Assembly: GCA_020852865.1 (NCBI GenBank)
Contig: JADYZZ010000011.1
Coordinates: forward strand, 1 to 51,938
DNA length: 51,938 nucleotides
From: Rubrivivax sp.
GTDB lineage: Bacteria > Pseudomonadota > Gammaproteobacteria > Burkholderiales > Burkholderiaceae_C
Direction of reading: 5' to 3'
Under the pieces are notes generated by a model. That model saw only the letters and a program-made list of their open reading frames with translations, made no database searches and was not told where the DNA came from. Position 1 is the first letter of the stretch. Each line of letters opens with the position of its first letter. Shown piece by piece: positions 9,958 through 38,648 of this stretch. The translations under genes and the position numbers were made by a program.

Positions 9958-10692
9958 TCAGCGGCCGCCCGCGAAATCCAGCAGGCGGCGCACGAGTTCG
10001 TCGGGCCGGCTGACCATCGGGCAATGCCCGGTGGCGATCTCGACGACACGCCAGCCCGGCTGCGCGCGCACGCGCCGACGCGACGCATCGATGGTGGCCA
10101 GGGCCGGCGACGTGCAGTCGACGAACAGGCGCGGCAGCATGGCCAGCCGCTCGGCGCTGAACTGCACCGGCTCGCAGTACATGCCGAAGGGGTGCGGCAC
10201 CTGGCGGCGCAGCAGCCAGTCGCGGTCGGCGCCGGCGAGGCCGAACAGCGCCGGGTCGGCCGGCGGCAGCGCGTTGTCGTGCGCCGCCGCCAGCGCCTCG
10301 CGCTGGGCCAGTGTCTGCGGGGCGTGTCCGCTGCTCCACGAATCGCCGGGTTCGGGCACGGCCGCGTCGACATAGACCAGCCCGCGCAGTACGCCGGCCT
10401 GGCCCTGCGTCAGGATCGCCTCGGCCGCCGCGGTGATGACGATTCCGCCGTAGCTGTGCCCGACGAGCACGCAGCCCTGCAGTTCCTCGGCCTCGATCAG
10501 GCCGACGACATCGGCCACATGCGTGGCCAGACCGATGTCGGGCCGGCGCAGGTGTGCGCGTTCGCCGTCGCCGGTCAGCGTCACCGCGTGCACCTCGTGG
10601 CCGGCGGCACGCAGCGGTCCGAGCACGCGTCGCCAGATCCAGGCGCCGCCCCAGGCGCCATGCACGAGCACGATGGGCGGTCTGTGATCCAT
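9958..10692 (-). CDS. Alpha/beta hydrolase (EstC / salicylate-esterase-like)
   Basis: A 244-residue hydrolase starting IVLVHGAWGGAWIW, the oxyanion-hole block of the EstC/MES-type esterase family. The nucleophile elbow is LVGHSYGG (Ser 80), and TGHCPMVSRPDEL carries the catalytic His near the C-terminus. There is no signal peptide. It sits 211 bp upstream of the kinase gene and about 130 bp downstream of the small membrane protein gene, all on the same strand. Its link to the kinase is unclear and may be fortuitous. The substrate is unknown; small carboxylic esters are usual for the family. Confidence 0.88.
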   Translation of the reverse strand: MDHRPPIVLVHGAWGGAWIWRRVLGPLRAAGHEVHAVTLTGDGERAHLRRPDIGLATHVADVVGLIEAEELQGCVLVGHSYGGIVITAAAEAILTQGQAGVLRGLVYVDAAVPEPGDSWSSGHAPQTLAQREALAAAHDNALPPADPALFGLAGADRDWLLRRQVPHPFGMYCEPVQFSAERLAMLPRLFVDCTSPALATIDASRRRVRAQPGWRVVEIATGHCPMVSRPDELVRRLLDFAGGR

Positions 10693-10821
10693 GCACCGAT
10701 GCTGCCGCGGCGCGAGCGCGGCGCCAGTCAGGACTTACGCTATCCGCCCCGCCCGCAGCCGAGGGCGCGCGCGAACCCGCGCGCCCCCACGCCCGCCCGA
10801 GCGACGCTGCACCGGAGCGCT

Positions 10822-11100
10822 TCAGAACGTCGGCGCCGGCTCCTGCAGCAGCTCGGACCGGCCGGCCAGCGCACGCGCGGCGTCGGGCACCGAGGTGTCG
10901 CCGGGCGCCGGCGCGGGCACCAGGGCCTGCGGCGGCGACGGCCGCGGCGTCGGCGAGGCCACGACGATGCGCCCGAGCGTCGCCGTCAGCAGCAGGCCGA
11001 CGACGATCGACACGAGCGCCGCGGCCCACAGCCAGCGCGACGTCGCGTACGGCCGGCCGGATGCCGGCGGCGATGGACGCACGATGCTCTGCATGGTCAT
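10822..11100 (-). CDS. Small membrane protein, unrecognised
   Basis: A 92-residue product with one hydrophobic segment (about 23-45, WLWAAALVSIVVGLLLTATL) after a short polar N-terminus, then a Pro/Ala-rich tail. The ATG at 11100 was chosen because the longer ORF to 11556 only reads the next gene in a wrong frame. It lies 29 bp downstream of a small secreted protein gene on the same strand, so the two may be co-transcribed. I do not recognise the family. The topology suggests a single-pass membrane protein with a periplasmic tail. Confidence 0.6.
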   Translation of the reverse strand: MTMQSIVRPSPPASGRPYATSRWLWAAALVSIVVGLLLTATLGRIVVASPTPRPSPPQALVPAPAPGDTSVPDAARALAGRSELLQEPAPTF

Positions 11101-11129
11101 GGCACAGGCTCCTCGTGAAGCACGGGGGT

Positions 11130-11495
11130 TCAAGGCGTGCGGGTCGCAGCGGCCACGGCAACGCAGGCCGTCGGCGCGCGCCAGCGTGCGGCGCGCTCGC
11201 TGCCGACTTCGAATGCGATGCCGTAGAGCACGCGGCCGTAGCGCAGCATTGCGCGCGCCATGCGCGCGGCCTCGCAGTGGCCCTCGTCGGCCAGCGCGAC
11301 ATAGAGGTCGAAGGCCTCGCGGTAATGGCCGATCTCGTAGGCGGCCTGCGCGGACGCCAGGCGTGTCGGCGGGGCGTCCTGCGCGCAGGCCGCGCCGGGC
11401 GCCGCGAGGGCGGTCGCGAGCGCAAGCGCTGCCGACGCCGGCCGCGCGAGGCTTCGTCCGGCCCGCGGTCGCCGCAAGCAAAGGGCATGGGGCAT
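11130..11495 (-). CDS. Small exported protein with one TPR/Sel1-like helix pair
   Basis: A 121-residue protein with an Arg-rich N-terminus and a hydrophobic signal segment ending near AACAQDAPP, so it is probably exported. The mature part contains AAYEIGHYREAFDLYVALAD followed by EGHCEAARMARAMLRYG, a helix-turn-helix pair of TPR or Sel1 type. Similar short proteins occur beside sigma factor/kinase genes in Burkholderiales, from memory. A partner-binding role is likely; no catalytic motif is seen. It follows the kinase remnant and precedes the small membrane protein gene on the same strand. Confidence 0.65.
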   Translation of the reverse strand: MPHALCLRRPRAGRSLARPASAALALATALAAPGAACAQDAPPTRLASAQAAYEIGHYREAFDLYVALADEGHCEAARMARAMLRYGRVLYGIAFEVGSERAARWRAPTACVAVAAATRTP

Positions 11496-11531
11496 GGTCT
11501 GCTCTCCTGGGCGCCGACGCCATCGGCCCCT

Positions 11532-11834
11532 TCACCGCGACATACGCAAGCCGCACCGCAAACCGGCCAGCACACAGGCCGCGAACCGCGCGCAGGGCCG
11601 CTTGCCGCCCGGCAGCGCGCGGGCGGTCACGCCGAGCGCGTACAGGTCACCGGCCGTGCCGACGGGCTCGCCGCGCCGCGGCCCCGGGCCGGCGTACTGC
11701 GGCGTCGGCGCGCGGCCCAAGGCCCTGCGGTCAGCCGCTGCGGCTGCCGCCGCGACGTCGCCCGTCTCGAGTTCGGCGTGGTGCGCCGGCAGCCCGCGCA
11801 GCGTGCCGGCCGGAGCGTGCGGCGACGCGGGCAT
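11532..11834 (-). pseudogene. Decayed serine/threonine kinase fragment (activation segment only)
   Basis: This 100-codon frame contains RALGRAPTPQYAGPGPRRGE followed by PVGTAGDLYALGV. It aligns to the activation segment of the intact kinase in this window (RALTPDYAAPEQVRSEPVSI then ATDIWALGV). The APE motif is damaged to AGPGP, and no glycine loop, VALK lysine, HRD or DFG block is found. The downstream part (TARALPGGKRP) resembles a worn version of LYxLLxGxxPF. The segment lies where TIGR02999-type sigma genes often carry their partner kinase. I read it as the remnant of a second kinase, not as a functional gene. Confidence 0.6.
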
Positions 11835-11885
11835 CGCGGCAACGAGCGCAGTCCGGAGGCGCCCCCGCGCTGGGCCGCTGCGCAG

Positions 11886-11923
11886 GGTCTCACTGCATCG
11901 CCGCGATCAGCAGCAGCCGCGCC
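11886..11923. repeat. Duplicated sigma-gene tail, distal copy
   Basis: These 38 bp match 11959-11996 with one mismatch (C versus G at the base after GCAT). On the minus strand it encodes the same terminal residues as the sigma factor (ARLLLIAAMQ and stop). The copies start 73 bp apart. The copy sits between the intact sigma gene and the kinase remnant and marks a recombination or duplication junction. Confidence 0.85.
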
Positions 11924-11958
11924 GCTGTACCGCGAGGTCTGCCGGCCGCTGCACGGTC

Positions 11959-11996
11959 GGTCTCACTGCATGGCCGCGATCAGCAGCAGCCGCGCC
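11959..11996. repeat. Duplicated sigma-gene tail, copy within the intact ECF sigma gene
   Basis: This is the partner of the repeat at 11886-11923 and forms the natural 3' end of the ECF sigma factor gene. It includes the TGA stop at 11963-11965 and a few bases beyond it. Homology begins and ends abruptly, consistent with a short tandem duplication. Confidence 0.85.
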
Positions 11997-12514
11997 TTCT
12001 CCCAGTCGCGCCGCACGGTGCGTTCCGACAGCCCCAGCGCGTCGGCGATCTCGGCCTCGCCCAGCCCGCCGAAGAAGCGCATCTCGGCCACCTGCGCCAG
12101 CCGCGCGTCGGCCTGCTCGAGCACCTGCAGCGCCTCGTGCACGCGCAGCGCGTCGTTCTCGGGTGCCGCGAGCTGGCTCTCGAGCAGCGTGTCGAGCACG
12201 ACATGTTCGGCGTCGCCGCCGCGGCGCTCGGCGTTGCGCGCACGCGCGTAGTCGACGATCACCGAGCGCATCACGCGCGAGGCATAGGCGAAGAAGTGGT
12301 GGCGGTCGTCGACCGGCAGCGCTTCGCTGCCGACGATCCTGAGGTAGGCCTCGTGCACGAGCGAGGTCGTGCCCAGCAGCGTCAGCGTGCGGTGCGGCCG
12401 CAGCCGCGCGGCGGCCAGGCGGCGCAGATCCTCGTAGAGCAGGCCGAAGGCCTCGCCGGCGGCCTTCTGGTCGCCCTGGCGCGCGGCCGCGAGCAAGACG
12501 CTGAGTTCGGGCAT
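11963..12514 (-). CDS. ECF sigma factor (TIGR02999-like)
   Basis: A 183-residue ECF sigma factor. Region 2 spans about residues 10-90, with LLYEDLRRLAAARL, HEAYLRIV and HHFFAYASRVMRSVIVDYAR. Region 4 spans about 125-180, with RLAQVAEMRFFGGLGEAEIA and LGLSERTVRRDWEKAR as the DNA-recognition helix-turn-helix. The combination resembles the TIGR02999 (Sig-70_X6) group, commonly found with Ser/Thr kinases instead of a classical anti-sigma factor. No anti-sigma gene is adjacent. The start at 12514 gives a full-length protein. It is divergent from the caspase-FGE gene across a 276-bp gap that likely holds both promoters. Confidence 0.88.
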   Translation of the reverse strand: MPELSVLLAAARQGDQKAAGEAFGLLYEDLRRLAAARLRPHRTLTLLGTTSLVHEAYLRIVGSEALPVDDRHHFFAYASRVMRSVIVDYARARNAERRGGDAEHVVLDTLLESQLAAPENDALRVHEALQVLEQADARLAQVAEMRFFGGLGEAEIADALGLSERTVRRDWEKARLLLIAAMQ

Positions 12515-12790
12515 CGGACGCCACCTCCGGCCGCGCGATGCTATGCGGATCCCGCGGAGCCCGGCAATCGGGCTGCCCGCAGCGATGCCGCACGGGCGAA
12601 CCCGGCCCCCCGCGCCCTCGATCGCAGGCGAACGAGAAGCCCGGCACGCCCACCCACCGGGCGCAGGATGTACAAGGGCATGCGCCGCAGTCGAGAATCG
12701 CGCTGCACCGAGCGCCGGCGACGTCCGAGGCGGTGCGGCCGGCCCGGGCCCCGGGCGGCGCACCCCGCACGACGCCCGGCGCCACCGTCG

Positions 12791-15163
12791 ATGAACACGC
12801 TTCGCCTCCTTCTCCTGCTGTGGTGTCTGGGCTGCGCCGCGCTGCTCGCCGCGCCGGCCACGGCCCAGGGCACGCCGGGCAGCGAACCGCGCGTGGCGCT
12901 GGTCGTCGGCAACGCGGCCTACCGCAGCGCCCCGCTGCGCAATCCCGTCAACGACGCGCGCGCGATGCGCGACAAGCTCCAGTCGATGGGCTTCGACACG
13001 CTGTACTTCGAGAACCTGCAGACCCGGCAGGTGGGCGCCGCGCTGCGCGAGTTCCGCAACCGGATCAGGCCGGGCGCGGTGGCGCTGTTCTTCTACGCCG
13101 GCCACGGCGTGCAGGTGCGCGGCGAGAACTACCTGCCCGCCGTCGACGCCGAGATCGGCAGCGAGGAGGACGTGCCGCAGCAGAGCCTGAGCCTGGGCGC
13201 CGTGCTCAACACGATGGAAGACTCGAAGGCCGGCGTCAACCTGGTGCTGCTCGACGCCTGCCGCAACAACCCCTATGCACGCAGCTTCCGCTCGGCACCG
13301 ATGGGCCTGGCGCGCGTGCAGGCGCCCAGCGGCACGCTGATCCACTACGCCACGCGCCCGGGCAGCGTGGCCGAGGACGGCCGCGGCGAGCACGGCACCT
13401 ACACCGAGGCGCTGCTGGCGCAGATCGGCGAGGAGGGCGTGCCGATCGAGACCGCGCTCAAGCGCGTCACGATCCGCGTGCGCGAGGCCACCAAGGGCAA
13501 GCAGGAGCCGTGGATGGAGGGCAGCCTCACCGGCGACTTCTACTTCATCGTCAAGCCCGGTGCGGTCGTCAACATCCAGCAGGCGCCGGCGACACCCGAG
13601 GCGGCGGCCTGGCAGGCGGCCGAGTCGCTCGGCACGTCAGCGGCCTACGAGGCCTACCTGAACGAATACCCGAAGGGCCTGTATGCGGCGGCCGCGCGCA
13701 TCAAGCTGGCAGCCTTGTCCCGGCCCGCCGCGGCCGCGCCGGCGACATTGCCCGCGCCTGCCGCGACCTTGCCGGCCCCCTCGGCCACCGCGCCCGTCCT
13801 GCCCCCGGCAGCACTGCTCACCCCGGTGCCGGCCGGTACCAAGGACGTCGAGGGCTTCGTCTGGCGCGACGTTCAGGCGCGCGGCGGCCGCGAGCATTAC
13901 GAGGCCTACCTGCAGCGCTACCCGCGCGGCCGCTACGTCGCCGCCGCGCGCACGGCGCTGCGCCGGCTCGATGCCCAGCGCGACGCCGAGCGCCTGGCCG
14001 AGCAGCGCGCCGCCGCCGAACCCCAGGCCTGGGAGGCGGCGCTGCTGGCACGCAGCGAGGCCGGTTATCAGGCATACCTGCAGGCCTACCCGAACGGGCG
14101 CTACGCGGCGCAGGCGCAGACGGCGATCCAGGCGCTGCGCCAGCCGCCGCCGCGCCCGAGCGAAGCGCGCCGCGAGCCCGAGCGCCAGCGCACGGCCGAG
14201 GAACGCGAGGCGCTGCGCAGCGCGGCACTGCGCGAGCTGAGCCTGGCACGCCTCACCGGCGCCGAGTTCCAGATGGGCGCCGATGCCGACGAGCCGGGCG
14301 AGGACGGCCAGCCCGACGCCTCGGCCCAGCCCAAGCACGCAGCAGCGATCGCGAACTTCGAGCTCGCCTACTACGAGACCACGGTGGCGCAGTTCCGCAA
14401 GTTCGTCGAAGCCACCGGCTACGTCACCGAAGCCGAAGGCGCCGTCGAACCCGGCTGCAACGTGCCGGTCAAGGGCGGCCAATGGCAGCTGCAGCCGGCG
14501 GCGAACTGGCGCGCGCCGGGCTACACCCAGACCGACAGCCATCCGGTCGTCTGCGTGAGCTGGAACGACGTGCAGGCTTACCTGCAGTGGCTGGCCGGCA
14601 CCAGCGAACCGCTGCGGCTACCGAGCGAGGCCGAATGGGAATTCGCCGCGCGCGGCGGCACCACCTCGCCCAGGCCCTGGAGCGACACCGGCGGCTTCTG
14701 GACCCGTCTGTGGGAAAGCGTCAAGCCCGGCACGGGAGGGCCGCAGCCGCAGGAACAACAGCAACCGCAGCAACAGCCGCCGCCGCCCAGCCGCGCCTGC
14801 CGCTATGCCAACGTCGCCGACGAGACGCTGCGCACCGCGCTCGACTGGCCGGCCGTGCTCAACTGCAACGACCGCTACCCCTACCCGGTGCCGGGCGGCT
14901 ATTTCGGCCGCAACAACGTCGGCCTGTACGACATGATCGGCAACGTCGCCGAGTGGACGCAGGACTGCGCCAACCCGAGCCACGCCGGCGCCGCACGCGA
15001 CGGCCGCGCGCGCAGCGACGGCGACTGCACGCGCCACGTCGTGCGCGGCGGCAGCTGGGCCAGCTCGCCGGCGCTCATCCGCTCGGCGGCGCGCATCGGC
15101 CAGCCGCACTCGTACCGCGCGTCGGACCTGGGTTTTCGCATCGCGCGCACGCCCAAGAGCTGA
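12791..15163 (+). CDS. Secreted caspase-like peptidase fused to an FGE-sulfatase (SUMF1-like) domain
   Basis: A 790-residue protein. A signal peptide (1-26, cleaved after TAQG) is followed by a caspase/C14 domain (about 33-250) with His 105 in FYAGHG and Cys 157 in LLDACRNNP, an intact clan CD dyad. A linker region carries three related YLxxYPxGxY helical motifs (near 283, 368 and 424) separated by Pro/Ala-rich stretches. An FGE-sulfatase fold domain follows (about 485-785), with FELAYYETTVAQFRKF, LPSEAEWEFAARGG, NVAEWTQDC and RGGSWASS...GFRIAR. The Cys pair that binds copper in true FGE is absent from the RGGSW block, so oxidase activity is doubtful and a binding role is more likely. The ATG at 12791 gives the signal peptide; the far longer upstream frame is spurious. 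Confidence 0.9.
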   Translation: MNTLRLLLLLWCLGCAALLAAPATAQGTPGSEPRVALVVGNAAYRSAPLRNPVNDARAMRDKLQSMGFDTLYFENLQTRQVGAALREFRNRIRPGAVALFFYAGHGVQVRGENYLPAVDAEIGSEEDVPQQSLSLGAVLNTMEDSKAGVNLVLLDACRNNPYARSFRSAPMGLARVQAPSGTLIHYATRPGSVAEDGRGEHGTYTEALLAQIGEEGVPIETALKRVTIRVREATKGKQEPWMEGSLTGDFYFIVKPGAVVNIQQAPATPEAAAWQAAESLGTSAAYEAYLNEYPKGLYAAAARIKLAALSRPAAAAPATLPAPAATLPAPSATAPVLPPAALLTPVPAGTKDVEGFVWRDVQARGGREHYEAYLQRYPRGRYVAAARTALRRLDAQRDAERLAEQRAAAEPQAWEAALLARSEAGYQAYLQAYPNGRYAAQAQTAIQALRQPPPRPSEARREPERQRTAEEREALRSAALRELSLARLTGAEFQMGADADEPGEDGQPDASAQPKHAAAIANFELAYYETTVAQFRKFVEATGYVTEAEGAVEPGCNVPVKGGQWQLQPAANWRAPGYTQTDSHPVVCVSWNDVQAYLQWLAGTSEPLRLPSEAEWEFAARGGTTSPRPWSDTGGFWTRLWESVKPGTGGPQPQEQQQPQQQPPPPSRACRYANVADETLRTALDWPAVLNCNDRYPYPVPGGYFGRNNVGLYDMIGNVAEWTQDCANPSHAGAARDGRARSDGDCTRHVVRGGSWASSPALIRSAARIGQPHSYRASDLGFRIARTPKS

Positions 15164-26328: not shown

Positions 26329-27819
<1,491 letters not shown>

Positions 27820-27882
27820 CGGCGGCGACTGTAGCGGCTGCCGATGCCGCCGGTGCGGCCCCTGCGCACGCGCGCCGCAGCG

Positions 27883-29727
27883 CTACAGCCACATCGTGAC
27901 GCGCACCGTGTCGTCTTCGCGCGCGATCTCGTAGCGCTCGGTGGCGCGGCGCGCCAGTTCGATCATGCGCTTGTTCTGCGGCAGGATCTCGCCCACCAGC
28001 GCACGCAGGCCGCGCGTGCGCGCGTGCTCGACCAACCGGCGCTGCAGCGCGCTGCCCAGGCCCGTGCCCTGCCAGTCCGGCGCGACGACGAACGCGATCT
28101 CGGCGGTGTTGGTCGAGGGATCGGCAGGCCTGGCCGACGATCACCTCGTGCTCGCGCGTGCCGCTGACGGCCACGAAGCCGACCTCGTTCACGTGGTCGT
28201 AGTTGCACAGGCGCTGGATGTCTTGGCCGGAGAGCGAGCGCACGCGGCGGAAGAAGCGCGTGTAGACGTCGCCCTCGGGCAGCTTGAAGAACAACGCGCG
28301 GATGCCGCCGCCGTCGGAGGCGCGCGCCGGGCGCAGCAGCACCTCGACGCCGTTCTTCAGGCGCACGCGCCGCTCGTCCTCCAGCGCATAGGCACGCCTG
28401 CTGGCGAGCGTCTGGCCGGCGTCGAGCAGGCCCAGCCGCCTGGCCTCGTCGAGCAGCCAGGCGCGGAACTTCGGGTGCGCCAGCTCGATGAGCACCATGG
28501 CGCGCTCGCGCACCGACTTGCCGAACAGGTAGAGATGCCGTACTCGGTGATCACGTAGTGCACGTCGGTGCGCGCCACCGTGGCGCCCTCGCCGGCCAGC
28601 AGTTGCGGGCGGATGCGCGAGACCTCGCCGTCGTCGGTGGTCGAGGCCAGGCAGACGATCGGCTTGCCGCCGGGCGCGCGCGCCGCGCCGCGCAGGAACT
28701 CGGTCTGCGCCGCGAGCCCGCCGTAGAACTCGCCGGCGAACTGGTCGGCGCAGGCCTGGCCGGTGAGATCGACCGCGAACACCTGCGTCACCGACACCAT
28801 GCGGTGCTGCGCCGCGATGGTGTAGGGATCGCACACCGTCTCGATGGGCTGGAACGCGAACAGCGGGTTGCGGTCGACGATCTCGAACAGCCGGCGCGTG
28901 CCGAAGGCGTAGCTGGCGACGATGCGCCCGCGCTGCAGGCTCTTGCGCCGGCCGTTGACGATGCCCTTGTCGAGCAGCGGCACGATGGCGTCGGTGACGG
29001 CGTCGGAGTGGATGCCGAGGTCGCGCCGGTCCTCCAGGTACCGCAGCGCCTCGTTCGGGATGCGGCCGGGGCCGATCTGCAACGTCGCGCCGTCGTCGAT
29101 GGTGCCGGCGATGTAGCGCGCGATGCGCTCGACCACGGCCTGTTCGGTGGATGCGTGCCGGTACTCGATCATGGCCGGCTCGACCTCGACGAGATGGTGG
29201 ATGCGCTCGAGGGGCAGGGTCGATTCGCCCATCGTCCAAGGCATCGCCGGGTTGACTTCGGCGACGACGAGCCGGGCGCATTGCACCGCCGCCGCCGCCA
29301 CGTCGACCGAGACGCCCAGGCTCACGAAGCCGTGCGCGTCGGGCGGCGTCACCTGCACGCAGGCCACGTCGACCGGCAGGCGGCCGTCGCGCATCAGTTC
29401 GGGCAGCCGCGCCGCCGACAGCGGCACGTACTCGATCGCGCCCTGGCGCATCGCCGCGCGCATCTCGCTGCCGATGAAGATGGCGCGGTGGCGGCAGCGC
29501 GTCGCCACGCGTCCGTCGGCGCCGGCGGGCAGCGCGCCGTCGGTGACGAAGTGCAGCAACTCGACGTCCGCCGGCGGCGGCGTCAGCGCCTCGAGCGCGC
29601 GCACCAGCGTGCGCGGCGTGGCGCAGGCGCTGCCGACGAAGACGCGGTTGCCGGGCGCAATGCGTTGCACCGCGGCCTCGGCCGACAGCAGGCGGGCCCG
29701 ATAGGCCTGGGCGACGGAAGGCGTCAT
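27883..29727 (-). pseudogene. Acetyl-CoA hydrolase/transferase-GNAT fusion gene with two frame breaks
   Basis: The N-terminal part (from the ATG at 29727) is an acetyl-CoA hydrolase/CoA-transferase with NRVFVGSACATPRTLVRALE and VHYVITEYGI near its end. A one-base shift near 28532 moves the frame to YLFGKSVRERAMVLIELAHP and on to a GNAT N-acetyltransferase start (VRLKNGVEVLLRPARASDGG). At about 28123 a second shift separates EVIVGQAC from DPSTNTAEIAFVVAPDWQ; the missing loop suggests about 8 bp are lost. The GNAT tail ends at the TAG at 27883-27885. Intact fusions of this build are known as bifunctional proteins. The gene is either a recent pseudogene or carries two sequencing errors. Confidence 0.75.
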
Positions 29728-29925
29728 GCGGATCCCCGGGCGGCGCGCGCGGCAAGGCGCCGAAGCCGCGCACGGTAGCACCGCGCACCGCGGCGCCGCC
29801 AGCGGCGCGCACCCCCGCGTTCGCAGGGGGCCGGGCGTGTCCGCTTTTTCCGGCGCGCTGCGTATGCAAGTGCGCAGGTGCGGCCGCGATCCGCGCCGCA
29901 CGAATCCACTTCGAGGGGCCGTTTC

Positions 29926-30945
29926 ATGCATCGCATCGCCTTCGGCGCGGCAAGTCGTCTCATCGGTGTCCTGGCCTGTGCCGCCGCCGGCGCGGCCTGG
30001 GCCGGGCCGCTCACGCTGCAGCCGAACCTCCCGCAGTTGCGCCTCGGCGCCGACGGCGCCAGCCTGCCGACTCTGCCCGCCGGCTACGATCCGCCCAACG
30101 TCAAGGGCGCGCTCGCGCCCGGCGCTTCGGCGCGCCCCGGCTACCTCGCACTCGCCACCGGCCAGCCGCTGGGCGCGCCCGGCGGCGGCATCCAGGGGCC
30201 GATCAAGGAGCCCGGAGAACTGCCCAAGCTGCTCGGGCAACCCGACCCGATGGGCGCACCGGGCGGCCGCGTGATCGGTCCGATCCGCTTCCCCGGGGTC
30301 GTGGCCGCGCTCGTGACGCCGGGCATCACCGAGCTGCGGCTGCGCGCGATCACGCGAGCGATCCAGCCCGGCGCCGGCGTCGACCCCCTGGCGCCGAGCG
30401 TCGCGTACCTGCACCGCCTGTTCCCCGCTCTGGCCATCACCACCGAGCTGTACACGCCGGGCGGGGCACCGGGCGCGATCAGCTTCTGCAACTCCAAGGC
30501 CGCATGCTCGTCGGCGCCGGCGACACCCGATCCTGCGAACGTGCTGAGCGCCCTCTACGTCGGCTCGTTCGACTGGATCCGCGACGGCGGCGCCGAGTTC
30601 GAATATCTGTACTCCCTCCTCAACACCGACGCGCTCGTCTACATGGACATGACCGACCTGGCGCGCGTCGGCGCCGGCGACACGCTGGCCGGCCTGGTGC
30701 TGGCCGGTGCCGACGAGACGCTGCCCTACTTCGGCATCCACAGCGTGGGCTCCTTTGGGGCCGGCGCCAACGGCAAGCAGCTGCGCGACGTGGCCGACGT
30801 CACCGACGACGTGCTGGCGCGCTATGCAGCCGAGCAGGTGCCCGAACCCGGCACGCTGGCGTTCGTCGCCGCCGCGCTCGGTGCCGCGGGCTGGAGTGGA
30901 CGCACGCGCGCGCGGCAGGCCGCACGCGGCGGGCACCCAGGTTGA
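29926..30945 (+). CDS. PEP-CTERM sorting-domain protein, otherwise unrecognised
   Basis: A 339-residue exported protein. A signal peptide (1-26, ending AAWAGP) leads to a Gly/Pro-rich region with two similar blocks, GAPGGGIQGPIKEPG and GAPGGRVIGPIRFPG (about residues 84-125). A globular middle part follows, with SALYVGSFDWIRDGGAEFEY. The C-terminus has VPEPGTLAFVAAALGAAGW and then an Arg-rich end, the tripartite PEP-CTERM signal processed by exosortase/archaeosortase-type enzymes. The ATG at 29926 gives a proper signal peptide. No exosortase gene lies in this window. The protein is presumably exported to the outer surface or matrix; its function is unknown. Confidence 0.82.
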   Translation: MHRIAFGAASRLIGVLACAAAGAAWAGPLTLQPNLPQLRLGADGASLPTLPAGYDPPNVKGALAPGASARPGYLALATGQPLGAPGGGIQGPIKEPGELPKLLGQPDPMGAPGGRVIGPIRFPGVVAALVTPGITELRLRAITRAIQPGAGVDPLAPSVAYLHRLFPALAITTELYTPGGAPGAISFCNSKAACSSAPATPDPANVLSALYVGSFDWIRDGGAEFEYLYSLLNTDALVYMDMTDLARVGAGDTLAGLVLAGADETLPYFGIHSVGSFGAGANGKQLRDVADVTDDVLARYAAEQVPEPGTLAFVAAALGAAGWSGRTRARQAARGGHPG

Positions 30946-31006
30946 CGCAGGCGAACGCGCGGCCGGCGAGACTGCGGCCGCCTGCCTGGGGCAGGCGCGC
31001 CGCGGG

Positions 31007-31136
31007 GCACCTGCGCGCAGCGCTGCGTCCACGCGCACTGGGGCAGCGCGCAGCACCGCGTCCGCGCGCACTGGAGCACCTGCGCGCAGCGCCGCGTCCA
31101 CGCGCAGGGGAACACCTGACCGCAGCGGGGCGCGGG
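31007..31136. repeat. Tandem repeat of about 33-36 bp, three and a half units
   Basis: Three units start near 31007, 31042 and 31075. Each contains a GCGCGCAGC core followed by CGCGTCC-like and CGCGCA(CT)GG segments. A fourth, degenerate unit reaches about 31136. The array lies between the PEP-CTERM gene and the CHAT gene and crosses none of the conserved coding parts. It may include the leader of the CHAT gene. Confidence 0.65.
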
Positions 31137-31142
31137 CGCCCC

Positions 31143-34100
31143 GTGCTGCCCGGTCCGGCGCGGCACCGCACACCCGGTTGCAGATGCGGCCTGGCCACGC
31201 GCCTGGCGGCCGGCCTCGCAACCTGTCTCGTGCTGGCGCTCGCCGTCACGGCGGCGGCCGCTGCGCAGGGCGCATCTGCGGCGCCGACGCTCGAAGCCGT
31301 GGCCGCAGCCTGCGGCGCGGGCCCGCCGACCGCCGCCACCGCCGACGCCGCGCTTGCGCTGTACGCCCGGGGTGTGCTCGAAGTGGCGCGGCCCTGCGCC
31401 GTACCGCTGCTGCGCGCGGCACGCGACGCCGCAGGCCCGCCCGCGCTGCGCCTGGCCGCGCTGCGCGCCGCGGCGCGGCTGTCCAGTGGCGAGCCTTCGA
31501 GCGCCATTGCCGACGAGGTGGCCGCGTTGCTCGGCGACCTGGGCGGGGTCGTGGGCGAAGGCGCGGGCGCAGCCGACGCCACCCTGGCGCTGACGCGTTG
31601 GCAGGTGCGTGTCGAGCACGGCGTGCTGCTCGCGCTGCTGCGCCGCTCGGCCGAGGCCGAAGCCGCGCTCGATACCGCACTGGCCGCGGCACCTTCCACA
31701 GCCGACGCGGCCGAGCTCCTGCGGGCTCGCCGCTGCCTCGCGGTGGCGCTGGCCGACGGGCGGCGCGCCGCCGAGGCTCCGGCACGGGCACGCGCCGTCC
31801 TCGACGAAAGCGAGCGGCTGCTCGGCCCCGACCATGTCGAAACGCTGCTGGCCGCGCTCGGCCTGGGCACCTTGCTGTGGCGCGTGTACGAGCTGCCGGC
31901 CGCCGAGCTGCAGTACGAGCGCGCGGCGGCGGGCTTCGCGCGCGTGCTCGGCGCCGACCACGCCTACACGCTGGCGGCGCGCCAGGGCCTGGGCGTGCTC
32001 GCACTGCGGCGCGGGCAGTTCCAGGGTGCCGTCGCCACGCTCGGCGCGGCCCTCGTCGACGCCCGGCGCACGCGCGCCGACGACGACCCCGATCTGGCGC
32101 CGCTCGCACTGGCGCACGCCAGTGCGCTGGCCGAAACCGGCCGCCTGCGCGAGGCCGAGGCCGCGTTCGAGCGGCTCGAGGCGCAGCAGATCGCGCGCCA
32201 CGGCGCGCGCGACGCGCGCACGCTCGACGTGCAGTCGATGCTCGCCTTCGTGCGCTACTGGCTGGGCGACGGCCGCGGCACGATGCGCGCCGCCGAGGCC
32301 GTGCTCGAAGGCCGCGTGCGCAGCGCCGAACCGCACGATCCGCGCCGTCTGGCCGCCGAGGCGCTGTACGCCTCGGCGTTGCAGCTCGTCGGGCGCAGCG
32401 ACGAAGCCGCGCGCCGACTCGAGCAGGCCCTGGCCGTGGCGCGGCCGGTGCACGGGCCGGGCAACGACAGCGTACTGCAGATCGAGCTCGAGCTCGCGCT
32501 CGCCTATCTCGAGAGCGGCCGCACGGCCGAGGCCCTGCCGCTGCTGCAGGCGATCGACGCGGCCTTCGCCGGCCGGCCGGCGGAATTGCCGCATGTGCGC
32601 CTGATGGCCGAAGAGCTGCTGGCTCTGGCGCTGCTGCGCCGCGGCGGCGGCCGTGGCGCACGCACGCGCCGGCCTGGCCCTCGGCGACGCCGCCGGCGCC
32701 CGAGCCGAACTCGAAGCGGCGCTGGGCACGTTCGAGGGGCACGGCGACTTCCTCTGGCGCGAGCGCTTCGCGGCGCGCGCGGCGCTGGCGCAGGCAGCCG
32801 ACGCGCTGGGCGACGCCCGGGCCGCGCGCGTCGCGCGCCGGCGTCTCGTCGAAGACGTCGAGCGCATCCGCGCCAGCCTCGACGACAGCCCTGCGGTGCG
32901 CCAGGCCTACCTGCGCGATTGGGTGCCGCAGTACCGGCAGCTCGCGCTGGACGAGGCGGCGGCGGCGCGCCCGGCCGAGGCCTTCCGCGTGGCCGAGCTG
33001 GCGCGGGCCCGCACGCTGCTCGAGAGCCTGCGCAGCCGCCGCGCCGACGAATCGGGCCCGACCCAGGCGCGCGACCGCGCGGCGCTGGCCGCGCTGGCCG
33101 GCCGCATCGGCGTGCTCGACGAGGCGCTGCACGACGCGTCCGACGAGGCCCGCGTCGCGCTCGAAGCCGAGCGCAGCCGCGTCGCCGACGAACTGGCCGC
33201 ATTGCGCACCGCGATCGCCGCGCGTGATGCGCGCTACGCGGCGCTGCTCGCCTTGCCGGCGGCCGGCCCGGAGGCGGCAGCGCAGGTGCTGCAGCCGGGC
33301 GACCTGTTCGTCTCCTACACCGTGCACGAGGGCCGGCTGCTCGTGACCTGGTTCGACCGCCGCGGGCTGCCGCAGGCGCGCATCGCACGGCTGGCCGGCT
33401 CGCTGCGTGACGCCATCGAAGGCTGGCGCGCGCTGCTGCTGGCTTCGCCCGGGCGGCCGGCGGCGCCGGTGTGGATCGACGGCGAGCGCGTCGTGCTGGG
33501 CGTCGTGCGGCCCGGTCCCGGCGCCCGCCGCGCAGCCACGGCCGATGCGGTGGGCGCGCTGCTGGCGCGCTGGCTGCTCGAGCCGCTGGCCGACGCGCTG
33601 CCGGCGACGCGCCGGCTCGTCGTCGCGCCCGACCCGGCGCTCGCGCTCCTGCCCTTCGACGCCCTGCCGTGGCAGGGGCGGCCGCTCGTGGCGGCAGTCG
33701 ACATCGCGCATGTGCAGTCCTTCGGCGTGCTGGCGCTGCTGACGGCGCAGCCGCGCGCACGCGCGGCGCCGCGTCGCCTCCTGGCGGTGGCCGATCCGGC
33801 GTACGAAGGCGGCACCACCGGCCGCACGCGCCCGGCGAGCGCGGTCGAGCAGGAGCTGCGCCTGAGCGCACCCGGAATCGCCCCGGGTGAGCCGCTGGCC
33901 TGGAGTGCGCTGCCCGGCACGCGGCGCGAGGCGCTGGCCGTGGCGCGCTTGTTCGCACACCGCCGGCTGCTGCTGGGCGCGGGCGCCTCCGAGAGCGAGC
34001 TGTACCGCCTGGCGCAGCGCGGCACGCTTGGCCGCTACGACGTGCTGCACTTCGCCACCCACGGCCTGATCTCGGCGCAGCGCCCGTGGTCGAGCGCGCT

Positions 34101-34473
34101 CGTGCTCGCCGCGCCGCCGCCCGGCGCATCCGAGGACGGCTACCTCACGGCGCTCGAGTTCGGCCGCCTCGGCCTGGCCAGCAAGCTGGTGGTGCTGTCG
34201 GCCTGCGACACCGCAACCGGCAACGCGCTCGAGGGCGAGGGGGTGCTCGGATTCCCCTATGTTCTGCTGGTGTCGGGTGCGGCAGCGACGATGCTCACAC
34301 TGTGGCCGATCGACGACGCGGCCACCGCGCGCCTGATGCCGGCCGTGCTGCGCGGCGTGCGTGCCGGGCTCGCGCCGTCGCGCGCGCTGGCACGCGCCAA
34401 GCGCGAATGGATCGCGCACGATGCGGCTGCCGGCGCGCGCACCTGGGCCGGCGTTGTGGTGTACGGCCTGTGA
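31143..34473 (+). pseudogene. TPR-CHAT domain protein (caspase-like peptidase), coding frame broken once
   Basis: The first part (frame to about 32645) has an Ala-rich signal-like segment (CLVLALAVTAAAAAQG) and then TPR-type helices with LGPDHVETLLAALGLGTLLW and LGADHAYTLAARQGLGVLAL. At 32637-32650, within a GCGGCGGCGG run, the frame must shift by one base to continue as VAHARAGLALGDAAGARAEL. The C-terminal CHAT domain (about 33600-34473) has catalytic His in LHFATHG (His codon 34060-34062) and Cys in VVLSACDTATGN (Cys codon 34204-34206). Both catalytic residues are intact. The start is uncertain; GTG at 31143 is the best upstream choice. The lone disruption in a repeat may be a sequencing error, in which case the gene is functional. 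Confidence 0.8.
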
Positions 34474-36308
34474 ACGGCTCTTCGCCCGAGCGCGCCTGGC
34501 GCCGTCGCGGCGCCCTCGCCGCCCTGGCTGCGGCCGCGCTGCTGCCGCTGTTGCCGCCGCTGCAGCGCGCCGAGCTGGCCTGGCTGGACACGCAGTGGCG
34601 GCTGCTGCGCCGCCTGGCGCCGCCGGCGGCCGCGGCAGCGCGCGACGAACCGGTGGTGGTCGGCATCGACGAAGCCACCTACCAGGGCATCGCCGAGCCC
34701 TTCGCACTCTGGCATCGACCTCTGGGCGAGTTGTTCGCGGCGCTGGCCGCCGCCGGACCGCGCGGCGTGCTGGTCGACATCGCGCTGCCCGAGCGCTCGT
34801 TCGACCGCGTGCTGCCGGGCAGCGACGCCGCGCTGCTGGCCGGCATGCACGCGCTGGCGCGCGCCGCGCCGGTGGTCTACGCCGTCATGAGCGGTCCCGA
34901 CGGCCGACCAAGGCCGGTGTTCGCGCCGCTGGCGGCGGTGGCCGGCGCGCATTCGTTCGCCTCGGCGCTGCTGCCGCTCGACGAGGACGCTCATGTGCGC
35001 CGACTCGGCGGCGCGGCAGGCAACTTGGAGCCCGCCACGATGGCCGCGGCGCTGGCCGCGCGCCTGGGAGTCGCGTCGCCGCACGCCGACGCGCTCATCG
35101 ACTACGCGCCGAGGCACCGCTTCGACTACCTGCCGATGCAGGATCTGCTCGCGCTGCAGCGGGCCGGTCGCAGCGACGAGCTGCGTGCGCGCCTGGGCGG
35201 CCGGCCGCTGGTGCTGGGCGTGGTGCTCGCGTACAGCGACCGCCTTGCAACGCCGGTGCCGCTGGCTGCCTGGCAAGACGACGCGGCCGCGCCACCGGGC
35301 GTGCTTGTGCATGCGCAGGCGCTGCGCACCGTCTTGAGCGCGCGCGCGGTGCAACCGGCGCCGCCCGCGGCGGCTTGCGCGCTCGTGCTGGCCTGCGCTG
35401 CGCTCGGCTGGCTGCGGCTGCCGGCGGCGGCCGTTCCGGCCTCGGTACCGCCGGCCCTGGCACTGCCGGTCATGGCGTTGCTGGCCTTGGCGTTGCTGTC
35501 GACCGCGCTGCTGCGCGCCGGCTGGTACCTGCCGGCCGCCGCGGCCGCCGCGGCTCTGGTGCTGACTGCCCTGGCGCGTCAGGCGCTCGAGGCCGCGCTG
35601 GCGCTGCGCGAACGGGCGCGGCTGCGCAGCGCCTTCGCCGGCTACGTGAGCCCGCAGGTGCTGCAGCAGCTGCTCGCCGGGGAACTCGACCCCGCGCGAC
35701 CCGACGGCCCGCGCCCGATGGCCTTCCTGTTCGCCGACCTGCGCGGCTTCACCACGCGCGGCCAGCACGAAGCGGCGCGCGAAACCGTCGCGATGCTCAA
35801 CCGCTACTACGACGCCATCGTCGAGCCGATCCACGCCCAGGGCGGCATGGTCGACAACTTCCGCGGCGACGGCATCATGGTCGTGTTCGGCGCGCCGCAG
35901 CCGCAGCCCGACGCAGCACGCGCGGCCATGCTGGCCGCCGGCGGCATGGTGCGCGCGCTGACGGCGCTGAACCGGCAACTCCGCAGCGAGGGCCGGCCGG
36001 CGCTCGAGATGGGCATCGGCATCGCCTGCGGCGAGGCCGTGGCCGGCCAGGTGGGCAGCCGCCAGCGCCACGACTACACGGCGATCGGCGACGCCGTCAA
36101 TGTCGCCGCGCGGCTGCAGGACCAATGCCGGCCGCAGCGCGCGCAGGCGGTCGTCAGCACCGAGGCGGCAACCCGGCTGCGCGCCGGCGAGGCGCAGATC
36201 CGCGAACTGGGCGAGATCGAGCTGCGCGGGCATGCGCCGGTGCGCTGCTGCGCGCTCACCTGGCCGGACGGATGGCCTGACGGCACGGTGAACGCGGCGG
36301 CGGCATGA
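34470..36308 (+). CDS. CHASE2-domain class III adenylate/guanylate cyclase
   Basis: A 612-residue membrane enzyme. An N-terminal helix precedes a periplasmic CHASE2 sensor (about 45-280, with PVVVGIDEATYQGI and RGVLVDIALPERSFDRVLPG). Three hydrophobic segments (about 300-370) lead to a class III cyclase domain (about 415-590). Metal-binding Asp residues are seen in FADLRGF (Asp 423) and RGDG (Asp 467), and YTAIGDAVNVAARLQ is conserved. The position normally held by the purine-selecting Lys (VDKF) is Asn 463 (VDNF), so the nucleotide preference is open. The GTG at 34470 overlaps the CHAT stop codon, and the 3' end overlaps the next gene in ATGA, so these genes are translated together. Confidence 0.9.
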   Translation: MNGSSPERAWRRRGALAALAAAALLPLLPPLQRAELAWLDTQWRLLRRLAPPAAAAARDEPVVVGIDEATYQGIAEPFALWHRPLGELFAALAAAGPRGVLVDIALPERSFDRVLPGSDAALLAGMHALARAAPVVYAVMSGPDGRPRPVFAPLAAVAGAHSFASALLPLDEDAHVRRLGGAAGNLEPATMAAALAARLGVASPHADALIDYAPRHRFDYLPMQDLLALQRAGRSDELRARLGGRPLVLGVVLAYSDRLATPVPLAAWQDDAAAPPGVLVHAQALRTVLSARAVQPAPPAAACALVLACAALGWLRLPAAAVPASVPPALALPVMALLALALLSTALLRAGWYLPAAAAAAALVLTALARQALEAALALRERARLRSAFAGYVSPQVLQQLLAGELDPARPDGPRPMAFLFADLRGFTTRGQHEAARETVAMLNRYYDAIVEPIHAQGGMVDNFRGDGIMVVFGAPQPQPDAARAAMLAAGGMVRALTALNRQLRSEGRPALEMGIGIACGEAVAGQVGSRQRHDYTAIGDAVNVAARLQDQCRPQRAQAVVSTEAATRLRAGEAQIRELGEIELRGHAPVRCCALTWPDGWPDGTVNAAAA

Positions 36309-37219
36309 GCGGCCCCGCGCAGCGCCGCAAGGCGGTTCGCACGAGCGCTTGCATGACGAGCCGTCGCATGGGGTGTCGCATGAGGTACCGCACGAGGATC
36401 CTGTCTGCATTCGTCTTCGCCGCCTGGGCCGCCGCCGGGACCGCCGTGGCCGGCGCACGCTTGATCGACGTCGCCGGGCGAGCCGAGCGCGGCGGCGCGC
36501 GCGGCGGCAGCGCGCTCACGCTGTTCGAGGCACTGGCGCCGGGCGAGCGCCTGGTGCTCGCTGCCGGCGCCCACGCGACGCTCGTCTTCGACGACAGCGG
36601 TCGCCAGTTCCTGCTGCGCGGCCCGGGGCGCTGGGCGCTGCACGGCGACGCGATCGCCACGCTGCAGGGCGCAGCGCCCGAGCCGCTGCCGGTCGTGGTG
36701 CCGGCGCTGCGTCCGCCGGCCGCGGCCGGTGCACGGCTGGCCGCCGGCGGCGCGGCGATGCGCGTGTCCGGCGCCGTCGACCTCGCGCCCTGGCCCGACG
36801 CCACCCGTCTGCTCGCGGCGCCGCCGGCGCTGCGCTGGGCGAGCGCGGGCGAGGGCTCACGCTACAAGGTCACGCTGGCCACGGCCGAGGGCCAGGCGCT
36901 GGTCGAGGCCCGGGTCGACGGCTCGCCCCTCGTGCTGCCGGCGCCGCGGCGCACGCAGCCGGGCATGAGCTACGCCTGGTCGGTGGAGGTCGAAGCGGGG
37001 CCGCGCCAGGGCGCACGCGCCTTCGCCGCCTTCAGCGTGGCCGACGCAGCGACGCAGCAGCAATGGGCCGCGCTGCGCCCCGAAACCGACGCGCCGGCAT
37101 CGCAATGGGTGCTCTACGCGAGGGCGCTCGAATCCGCCGGCTTTGCCGACGACGCGCGTGCGGCCTGGGACCATGTGCGCGCCGCGCGCCCCGGACTGCG
37201 CCTGCCGACGACGTACTGA
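36305..37219 (+). CDS. Exported FecR-like domain protein
   Basis: A 304-residue protein. The start in the ATGA overlap gives a basic leader of about 30 residues, then a hydrophobic signal segment (LSAFVFAAWAAAGTAVAGAR). The part after that (about 50-130) has the FecR-like pattern: LTLFEALAPGERLVLAAGAH then ATLVFDDSGRQFLLRGPGRW. A second beta-rich region contains RWASAGEGSRYKVTLATAEG. A downstream ATG (36353 or later) would shorten the leader. It is likely a periplasmic partner of the CHASE2 sensor encoded just upstream. FecR domains bind peptidoglycan-linked or regulatory partners in other systems; the partner here is unknown. Confidence 0.7.
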   Translation: MSGPAQRRKAVRTSACMTSRRMGCRMRYRTRILSAFVFAAWAAAGTAVAGARLIDVAGRAERGGARGGSALTLFEALAPGERLVLAAGAHATLVFDDSGRQFLLRGPGRWALHGDAIATLQGAAPEPLPVVVPALRPPAAAGARLAAGGAAMRVSGAVDLAPWPDATRLLAAPPALRWASAGEGSRYKVTLATAEGQALVEARVDGSPLVLPAPRRTQPGMSYAWSVEVEAGPRQGARAFAAFSVADAATQQQWAALRPETDAPASQWVLYARALESAGFADDARAAWDHVRAARPGLRLPTTY

Positions 37220-37271
37220 AGCGCACCCGCCGCGCCCCCATCGCCCCGCCCGCTCGAACACCGCCGCCGCC

Positions 37272-37730
37272 ATGAGCCACGACCCGGACGCCCTCCCCGC
37301 CGCATCCCCCGGCGACAGCGCTGCTGCCGGCGCTTGCGCCGACTCCGTCGCGCGCGACGCTCCCGGCGCGCCGCCGCCGCGGCGCGACCTGCAGCGCTTC
37401 ACGCGCCGCTGCGCCTGCGGCGAACTCGTCTTCGAGGAAGGCGGCGCCGGGCGCTGCATGTACGTCGTGCTCGAAGGCGAGGTGCGCATCCACACCGGCG
37501 AGGGCGAGCAGCGACGCACGCTCAACACGCTCGGTCCGGGCCAGTCGTTCGGCGAGATCGCGCTGCTCGAGGAAGGCAGGCGCACCGCGAGTGCCGTGGC
37601 CGTCCGCACGCCGACCGTGCTGGTCGAGATCGACAAGCCCCGCTTCGTCTACCTGGTGGGCCAGCAGCCGGCCTTCGCCCTCACGGTGATGCGCGCACTG
37701 GCGCGCCGCATGGAAGGCAGGACGCGATGA
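37272..37730 (+). CDS. Cyclic-nucleotide-binding domain protein (single CNB domain)
   Basis: A 152-residue protein. The first 45 residues are a Pro/Ala-rich linker; the rest is one CNB domain. The phosphate-binding cassette GQSFGEIALLEEGRRTASA has the conserved FGE and the Arg that contacts the cyclic phosphate, so cyclic nucleotide binding is expected. No DNA-binding or catalytic domain is attached, so it probably acts by protein interaction. It lies 50 bp after the FecR-like gene and three genes from the cyclase, making a local signal-and-receptor pair likely. The ATG at 37272 was chosen; its stop overlaps the next start in ATGA. Confidence 0.88.
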   Translation: MSHDPDALPAASPGDSAAAGACADSVARDAPGAPPPRRDLQRFTRRCACGELVFEEGGAGRCMYVVLEGEVRIHTGEGEQRRTLNTLGPGQSFGEIALLEEGRRTASAVAVRTPTVLVEIDKPRFVYLVGQQPAFALTVMRALARRMEGRTR

Positions 37731-38500
37731 GCAGCGCCGAGACCCCGCGCGTGCACGAGCTGGCCGGCGGCGTGTGGCAGTTCGTCGGCGCGCAGCGCAG
37801 CGCGCACAGCTACCTGTTCAAGGGGCGGCGGCGCATCGCGCTGGTCGACAGCGGCCTGCCGACCACCACCGCCTACCTCGAGGCCTGCCTGGCGACGCTG
37901 GGCCTGGCGCCGCGTCACGTGGACTTGCTGGTACTGACGCACGAGCACATCGACCACGCCGGCGGCGCGCCCTTCTTCGCCGCGCAATGCCTGGTCGCCG
38001 CGCACGCGCAGGCGGCCAACAAGCTCGCGCTGGCCGACGACTTCTCGCTCATGACCAAAGCCTTCGCCGAGGCCGCCCGGCCGTTCCAGGTGGATCTGTG
38101 CTGCGCCGAGGGCACGGCGGTCGAACTCGGCGGCCTCACGCTCGAAGTGGTGCACACACCGGGGCATTGCTCGGGCTCGGTATGCCTGTACGTGCCGCAG
38201 CGCCGGGTGCTCGTCGCCGGCGACACCATCATGGCCGGGGGCGTGGTCGGCGGCGTGCTGTTGTCGGGCAACACGAGCGACTACATCGGCTCGCTCGAGC
38301 GGCTGCAGCGGCTGCGCATCGACGCGCTGCTGCCCGGCCATGGCCGCGTGTCGCAGGACGCCCAGGCCGATCTCGAGGCCGGCCGGGCGCGCCTGGCCGC
38401 CATGCTCGAGGACTCGCACACGCTGTTCGCCGCGCTGCGCGAGACCGATCGGGGCTTCGGCGAAGTCATGCGCTCGCTGCGCGACCTCAACCAGCTCTGA
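37727..38500 (+). CDS. MBL-fold metallo-hydrolase
   Basis: A 257-residue metallo-beta-lactamase-fold enzyme. The metal motif is LTHEHIDHAGG (His 72, His 74, Asp 76, His 77), and downstream ligands are in VVHTPGHCSGS, VAGDTI and LPGHG, so both zinc sites look complete. It lacks a signal peptide. The start overlaps the CNB gene stop by 4 bp, so it belongs to the same transcript. Family members hydrolyse thioesters, phosphodiesters or lactones; a cyclic-nucleotide or thioester substrate would fit the operon, but nothing in the sequence decides. Confidence 0.9.
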   Translation: MSSAETPRVHELAGGVWQFVGAQRSAHSYLFKGRRRIALVDSGLPTTTAYLEACLATLGLAPRHVDLLVLTHEHIDHAGGAPFFAAQCLVAAHAQAANKLALADDFSLMTKAFAEAARPFQVDLCCAEGTAVELGGLTLEVVHTPGHCSGSVCLYVPQRRVLVAGDTIMAGGVVGGVLLSGNTSDYIGSLERLQRLRIDALLPGHGRVSQDAQADLEAGRARLAAMLEDSHTLFAALRETDRGFGEVMRSLRDLNQL

Positions 38501-38504
38501 GCAT

Positions 38505-38538
38505 TTCAAGCCCGCCAGGCGGGTCCGGTGTTCTTGAA
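38505..38538. repeat. Imperfect nested inverted repeat after the MBL-fold gene
   Basis: An outer 6-bp pair TTCAAG/CTTGAA (38505-38510 and 38533-38538) encloses an inner CCCGC/GCGGG hairpin (38511-38523). There is no T-tract. It could mark the end of the operon transcript but is not a convincing intrinsic terminator. Confidence 0.4.
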
Positions 38539-38648
38539 GGAACCGCCACCTTCCGCTATGCCGTGACCGTTTGATATTCCTGTTCCTCGAGAGGCCGCGC
38601 GGCGACCGCGGGCCGGGCAGCCGGCAGCGCTTGCGTTACCCTCGGGGC

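Follow-up and report, generated by a model that had tools for sequence, protein, structure and literature searches.

The contig JADYZZ010000011.1 of Rubrivivax sp. (assembly GCA_020852865.1) was analyzed over a stretch of 51,938 nucleotides, hereafter the window, which carries a block of forward-strand genes encoding a TPR-CHAT protease, a CHASE2 nucleotide cyclase, a FecR-like predicted exported protein, a cyclic nucleotide-binding (CNB) protein and a metallo-β-lactamase (MBL)-fold hydrolase. The protease gene opens with a GTG start and a signal-like N-terminus in its TPR half (31143..32642; TPR_12, 1.1e-19) and continues in its CHAT half (32653..34473), in which the clan CD cysteine peptidase domain (PF12770, 1.7e-54) occupies approximately positions 33550–34467. 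The cyclase gene (34470..36308), also with a GTG start, encodes a CHASE2 domain (PF05226, 4.1e-19) and a class III cyclase domain (PF00211, Guanylate_cyc, 4.3e-18), so that this domain call of an earlier first-pass annotation was borne out. The FecR-like gene (36305..37219, with an internal ATG at 36380 as a possible alternative start) encodes a predicted exported, probably MtxA-type protein with a beta domain, an immunoglobulin (Ig)-like domain and a TPR-like C-terminus; the CNB gene (37272..37730) encodes a single cNMP_binding domain (PF00027, 1.3e-20) without a DNA-binding domain, and the MBL gene (37727..38500; PF00753, Lactamase_B, 2.3e-30) is of unproven membership in the module. The CHAT and cyclase genes overlap by a GTGA (GTG at 34470, stop at 34471–34473), the cyclase and FecR-like genes by an ATGA at 36305, and the CNB and MBL genes by an ATGA at 37727, while the FecR-like gene and the CNB start codon (ATG at 37272) are separated by a 52-bp gap. 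The first-pass annotation had described five genes on one strand with overlaps at three junctions; the strand, the overlaps and the domains are real, except that no Pfam FecR domain was found and that the reading frame of the TPR-CHAT gene is interrupted.

The break in this gene lies at approximately 32.64 kb, where the TPR half and the CHAT half are read in different frames. The protein database contains an intact form of 1138 aa (P0132, 10 member sequences), whose TPR region is identical to that of the window, as well as a broken form of 527 aa (P0131, two members). Because approximately 28 residues are missing at the TPR/CHAT junction of the window relative to P0132, the break may be either a real deletion or an assembly fault. 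A 70% relative of the protease (P0133, 1130 aa) was also found, and a longest contig of 76093 is common to the records of P0133, the cyclase relative P0003 and the FecR-like relative P0124, which suggests that the three genes are linked there too; three further pairs of cyclase and FecR-like relatives likewise match in longest contig. The His/Cys dyad noted in the first pass is present in the window protein aligned with 10 relatives, and is kept in all 11 CHAT and all nine C14 proteins aligned. Export signals were read from the hydropathy of N-termini: the TPR-CHAT protein has a hydrophobic, signal-like stretch at residues 21–39, and N-terminal segments of this kind occur in most proteases and FecR-like proteins of the related loci. 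These hydrophobic segments suggest that the proteases and FecR-like proteins are exported.

The metal-binding and transition-state residues of the class III active site are kept in the window cyclase (two metal-binding Asp residues, D426 and D470, with N547 and R551; numbering from 34461), and in an alignment of 42 rows D426, D470 and N547 are invariant and R551 nearly so. In class III cyclases, a Lys at the site equivalent to Asn466 of the window protein specifies adenine. Many of the cyclase relatives have this Lys, whereas the window protein and other members of its clade have Asn; Rv1900c is an active cyclase with Asn at this site, and cyclic AMP (cAMP) is a candidate product of the window cyclase. 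Hydropathy places one hydrophobic segment before the CHASE2 domain and a cluster after it, a membrane layout also reported for a CHASE2 protein in the available text of a study of prokaryotic metacaspases (PMC3501461), and the cyclase domain is, like the CNB protein, predicted to be cytoplasmic. As a separate observation, altered catalytic residues were found in the cyclases of five of the order loci described below (L123, L124, L133, L136 and L138), the first four of which also lack FecR-like and protease neighbors.

The FecR-like protein of the window matched no Pfam family at an E-value of 0.001, neither the FecR domain PF04773 nor any MtxA model, and PF04773 was likewise absent from four full-length FecR-like relatives; it is therefore not a FecR protein in the Pfam sense. 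Its structural model (pLDDT 77.9) comprises strands at residues 51–128, an Ig-like domain at 157–251 and three helices at 248–294, and its best Foldseek match was the C-terminal domain of MtxA (3.1e-4), which in a second comparison was tied with general Ig folds. As modeled, the protein would have the MtxA-type layout of a hydrophobic N-terminus, a beta region, an Ig-like domain and a TPR-like C-terminus. A profile of the window family (A2) recovered the FecR-like proteins of loci L281 and L282 at 7.3e-9 and 4.7e-8; these two proteins match the solved MtxA structure (4z29) over almost their full length at 1.1e-86 and 3.8e-86, and that of L281 contains the Pfam domains DUF7354, MtxA_IG-like and MtxA_C. 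The link to the solved protein runs via L281 and L282, as 4z29 was not among the matches when profile A2 was searched against PDB sequences. The FecR-like protein is thus probably a distant relative of MtxA; the exported protein proposed in the first pass has the expected signal-like N-terminus by hydropathy but would belong to this family rather than to FecR. A database relative with 82% identity (P0123) is also labeled Rubrivivax sp., and TPR-CHAT genes adjoin an MtxA-type gene in L280, L282, L283 and L284.

To define the genomic neighborhood of the cyclase, a profile of 42 cyclases was searched against 300 genomes of the order Burkholderiales, and each of the 22 loci with E<1e-100, which come from 18 genomes, was retrieved together with flanks of up to 9 kb. 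A FecR-like gene adjoins the cyclase gene in 18 of the 22 loci, which supports the earlier proposal of an envelope-facing module in which a CHASE2 cyclase is paired with a FecR-like protein that looks exported. A CHAT gene was found near the cyclase in nine loci (L092, L118–L121, L125–L127 and L135) and a C14 caspase gene in seven (L122, L128–L130, L132, L134 and L138), so that a protease is encoded in 16 of the 22 loci, namely in 16 of the 18 with a FecR-like gene and in none of the four without (L123, L124, L133 and L136); the number expected by chance from the CHAT and C14 gene numbers per genome, with kinship ignored, is 0.31 of 22. The L092 protease is a fragment at a contig end. The protease of the locus is the sole CHAT or C14 protein over the cut-off in five of the 13 genomes with such a locus, some genomes being incomplete (G180, G192, G161, G328 and G239), and three genomes (G070, G200 and G298) have two loci each, one with a CHAT protease and one with a caspase. 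At least five switches of protease type were counted across a cyclase tree of 35 rows, indicating that the type is exchangeable. When 18 lower-scoring loci of the order (1e-60 to 1e-94) were also fetched, five had a FecR-like neighbor, three of these with a CHAT or caspase gene (L146, L153 and L156). Among the loci of the named genomes, L009 has FecR-like and CHAT genes, L008 has a caspase gene on a contig that ends after the cyclase, L010 has a FecR-like gene only, L011 has a FecR-like gene on a 3-kb contig, and L012 has neither.

A different arrangement was observed in 11 of the 18 lower-scoring loci (L139, L142, L145, L147–L152, L154 and L155), where genes for a small protein and an M48 peptidase come after that of the cyclase; of these small proteins, the two that were scanned (L142 and L149) showed a weak SH3 similarity that did not reach the Pfam cut-off.

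The search from the FecR-like protein covered a wider range. Profile A2 matched 24 of 398 genomes of the phylum Pseudomonadota and, after exclusion of nine rows that matched only the Ig-like part of larger proteins, 15 FecR-like loci were considered: 14 fetched neighborhoods and that of G068, which is L141 and extends only ~1 kb on one side. A protease gene was found in 10 of the 15, a cyclase gene in seven, and at least one of the two in 13. All three genes stand together in L273, L274, L282 and L283, and a cyclase and a FecR-like gene without a protease gene in L279, L281 and L285; neither partner was found in L141 or in L286, a contig-end fragment. The FecR-like gene is therefore kept both with the protease in loci lacking the cyclase (see below) and with the cyclase in loci lacking the protease, which makes it the hinge of the arrangement. 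The search for the same five-gene order that had been proposed as a check gave a mixed outcome, in that the exact order is unique to the window genome in the samples but its three-gene core recurs: the trio of protease, MtxA-like and CHASE2-cyclase genes was encountered again both in other families of Burkholderiales and in further classes of Pseudomonadota.

For the nucleotide receptor, the evidence comes mainly from the closest relatives. The smallest starred clade of a quick cyclase tree that contains the window has seven rows (SH-aLRT 95), and in all six relatives of this clade a gene for a CRP-type protein (CNB domain and helix-turn-helix, HTH) adjoins the cyclase gene, divergently in L121, L125, L126 and L127 and upstream in the same direction in L120 and L092; CRP identity was checked with Pfam in five of them and by profile in L127. 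Of the other 16 order loci, which fall outside this clade, two (L137 and L119) carry a CNB-domain gene immediately 5′ of the cyclase gene; in L137 it encodes a CNB-GGDEF-EAL protein. A CNB-domain gene thus adjoins the cyclase in eight of the 22 order loci, with a varying output domain. The window CNB protein is 152 aa long and, by Pfam and by alignment with CRP, consists of the CNB domain only, without an HTH; its phosphate cassette, including the Arg noted in the first pass, is present and aligns with the CRP proteins of the sister loci. It contains no hydrophobic segment by hydropathy and no TIR or membrane effector domain by Pfam. The window protein stands in for the CRP-type receptor of the sister loci and, since it has no output domain of its own, its output must pass through another protein.

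As an observation in its own right, the gene upstream of the cyclase in L119 (9001–12194) encodes a fusion of a Ser/Thr kinase and a CNB domain and overlaps the downstream CHASE2-cyclase gene, which places a receptor and a kinase resembling those of protein kinase A in one bacterial protein.

The coupled MBL hydrolase may be the nearest candidate partner for the CNB output, although this can be proposed only weakly. It gave NCBIfam matches to B3-like and hydroxyacylglutathione-hydrolase-like models, both below cut-offs, and its PDB relatives are similar. It was not found at the 22 and 18 loci of the order, at 11 of the class or at 14 of the phylum, a result that also speaks for reading the block as two independent neighbors, a CHAT-cyclase-FecR-like operon and a CNB-MBL operon, as do the 52-bp gap between them and the presence of MBL-CRP gene pairs in two members of the genus (L182 and L186) whose loci of ~3.3 kb contain no cyclase. 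This division of the block is doubtful, however, given that a CNB-domain gene adjoins the cyclase in the eight order loci, among which are the six window-clade relatives, and that the whole block falls within a single stretch which two genus members lack between the corresponding flanking genes. In these two genomes (L237 and L238) the genes for a sigma-54 activator and an M48 peptidase are direct, divergent neighbors; in the window they are separated by ~10.7 kb (27819–38571) that hold an acetyl-CoA hydrolase/transferase gene, a gene for a PEP-CTERM protein and the whole block. The cyclase occurs in one of 81 genomes of the genus and the FecR-like protein in one of 49, in each case that of the window itself. 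No MBL homolog was found at E≤1e-40 in 60 relatives; at E≤1e-20 one was found in 19 of 299 other genomes of the order, with identities of 31–40% among the matches listed. In both L182 and L186 the MBL gene adjoins the CRP-type gene, whose HTH was checked for L182, and an M48-like gene lies opposite.

Taken together, these features are compatible with an envelope-surveillance relay of protease, MtxA-type adaptor, CHASE2 cyclase and CNB receptor, a reading to which we assign a probability of roughly one half. In such a relay the TPR-CHAT protease, predicted to be exported, would cooperate with or act upon the predicted periplasmic MtxA-type adaptor; the adaptor in turn would contact CHASE2 on the membrane cyclase, and the CNB-domain receptor would detect the predicted cyclic nucleotide in the cytoplasm. 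The periplasmic contact of adaptor, protease and CHASE2 domain, the position of the protease upstream of the cyclase and cAMP as the product are proposed features of this relay. A nucleotide made in the cytoplasm could not act directly on an exported protease, and so the protease would either lie upstream of the cyclase or be a transcriptional output. The first-pass annotation had suggested that the CNB protein relays the signal, perhaps to the protease; the involvement of a CNB receptor gains support from the eight loci with an adjoining gene, but a relay to the protease is topologically unlikely because most proteases bear export-like signals and the CNB and cyclase domains are predicted to be cytoplasmic. 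In a broader and more tentative form, MtxA would be in essence not a protein of magnetotaxis but the adaptor of a phylum-wide, protease-gated second-messenger system with swappable proteases (TPR-CHAT, caspase-MORN and WD40-caspase) and exchangeable receptors (CRP, kinase-CNB, CNB-GGDEF-EAL and CNB alone). In that system the protease would be the sensor of an envelope event, and the receptor would use the cyclic nucleotide to reprogram the cell.

Several findings weigh against the relay, beyond the absence of the MBL gene from the related loci examined. The protease gene of the window is broken in this assembly, the protease lies on the opposite strand in two of 16 order loci (L119 and L135), no signal segment is seen in the L121 protease when read from its called start, and both caspases of L122 have only a weak or twin-arginine (Tat)-like one. 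In L138 the trio is present but the cyclase is degenerate. FecR-like and protease genes occur without a cyclase in L275–L278, all from one genus, and in L280, and in L284 the protease is accompanied by a CHASE2-GAF protein that is truncated where the contig stops and shows no cyclase domain; conversely, seven FecR-like loci (L131, L137, L010, L227, L279, L281 and L285) have no protease in the available stretch. An advance prediction for other orders of the class also failed: at E≤1e-80, at least 70% of loci had been expected to have a FecR-like neighbor and at least half a CHAT or C14 gene, and among 11 loci these were found in three (L225, L227 and L229, the last weakly, by profile) and two (L228, caspase; L230, TPR-CHAT), respectively, with three of the 11 being of the M48 type. 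Seven of the 11 contigs were short (4–12 kb), and the threshold admitted the M48 group; the third part of the prediction, that the CNB-MBL pair would not recur, held. In L228 a signal-bearing protein of 218 aa, matched by neither the FecR-like profile nor Pfam, is encoded between caspase and cyclase. Finally, an MtxA deletion mutant had no discernible phenotype under standard conditions, according to the portion of the report available (PMC4439547).

Two side observations concern proteases of these loci. Pfam assigns each of the four L275–L278 proteases to C14, and the L275 protein, which alone was scanned at full length, also has WD40 repeats. In L230 (235–5895) the TPR-CHAT gene adjoins a gene for a hybrid protein of CHASE2, histidine kinase, receiver and cyclase domains.

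The proximity of CRP-type genes to the cyclase in all six window-clade relatives would also fit an arrangement in which the protease is the output: the cyclase would sense the envelope via CHASE2 and the MtxA-like protein, cAMP-CRP would induce the protease gene, and the exported protease would act on envelope proteins. We regard this as unlikely, as the tie between the FecR-like gene and the protease needs no cyclase, being kept without one in the four loci of one genus and in L280, and as the window CNB protein has no DNA-binding domain, while L119 and L137 have kinase and GGDEF-EAL receptors instead.

A phage-defense function of the Pycsar or CHAT-effector type is highly improbable, as judged from the genes of the block, no systematic scan for defense genes having been made across the window. 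Pycsar is defined by a CNB-linked TIR or membrane effector. The Pycsar-cyclase and CNB-effector models of PADLOC do match the shared domains (2e-21 and 2e-12), but the CNB protein has neither a TIR nor a transmembrane effector by Pfam, the cyclase includes membrane segments along with a CHASE2 sensor, and the protease has an export-like signal. The consulted part of one study reports that clan CD proteases occur in conflict systems (PMC8195603), which is the other point in favor of defense. The known systems closest to the surveillance relay share some of its parts.

In magnetotactic bacteria, a CHASE2/adenylate-cyclase gene comes after the MtxA gene, and MtxA was described as specific to these organisms (PMC4439547, in part). 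The MtxA cluster resembles the window in that a protein with a signal peptide, a beta region at its N-terminus and further domains of the Ig-like and TPR-like kinds is encoded next to a CHASE2 adenylate cyclase; in contrast, the window protein is too remote to be matched by the Pfam MtxA models, and no CHAT or caspase gene is mentioned for the MtxA cluster in the accessible text (PMC4439547). The experimentally tested system of Sinorhizobium meliloti (CyaD1/CyaD2/CyaK, NsrA and Clr) is similar to the proposal in that CHASE2 cyclases convert an external signal into cAMP, which is read by a receptor of the CRP family, but there the signal enters via an outer-membrane beta-barrel, and the sections available name neither a protease nor an MtxA-type gene (PMC13001267). 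The BiofilmReg operon of Burkholderiales likewise encodes an exported LysM-FecR protein beside a CHASE2 sensor, but its output is a histidine kinase and response regulator, and its four genes are described, in the excerpt at hand, without a cyclase or protease (PMC5192318). Prokaryotic metacaspases provide a further parallel, since these clan CD proteases are tied to signaling domains, including one fusion to CHASE2; that protease is predicted to be cytoplasmic, however, and the operon section of the partial text contains no configuration of a CHASE2 cyclase with an MtxA-type gene (PMC3501461). CHASE2 cyclase-CRP signaling, FecR-CHASE2 pairs with kinases and MtxA-cyclase pairs are thus already known, and no description of the trio of protease, MtxA-like and CHASE2-cyclase genes was found in the open-licence PMC literature, insofar as its texts were available.

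Discussion of bacterial caspases and CHAT proteases has centered mostly on their roles as cytoplasmic effectors of death or defense. If the relay is real, the tie between an exported-looking clan CD protease and a membrane cyclase would point to an envelope-signaling role for such proteases, and MtxA would gain a concrete set of partners to test. The signals of CHASE2 have been described as unknown (PMC5192318, in the part available), and the trio supplies candidate partners for this domain.

Elsewhere in the window, a second clan CD gene was identified, encoding a C14 caspase domain at 12890–13543 on the forward strand within an open reading frame (ORF) at 10691–15163 that has a signal-like N-terminus and a long C-terminus; an ORF resembling an extracytoplasmic function (ECF) sigma factor by eye (11963–13393) lies opposite to it. 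The window genome has in total four CHAT and six C14 matches. Imperfect direct repeats with a spacing of 33–36 bp occur at 30995–31127, just 5′ of the TPR-CHAT gene.

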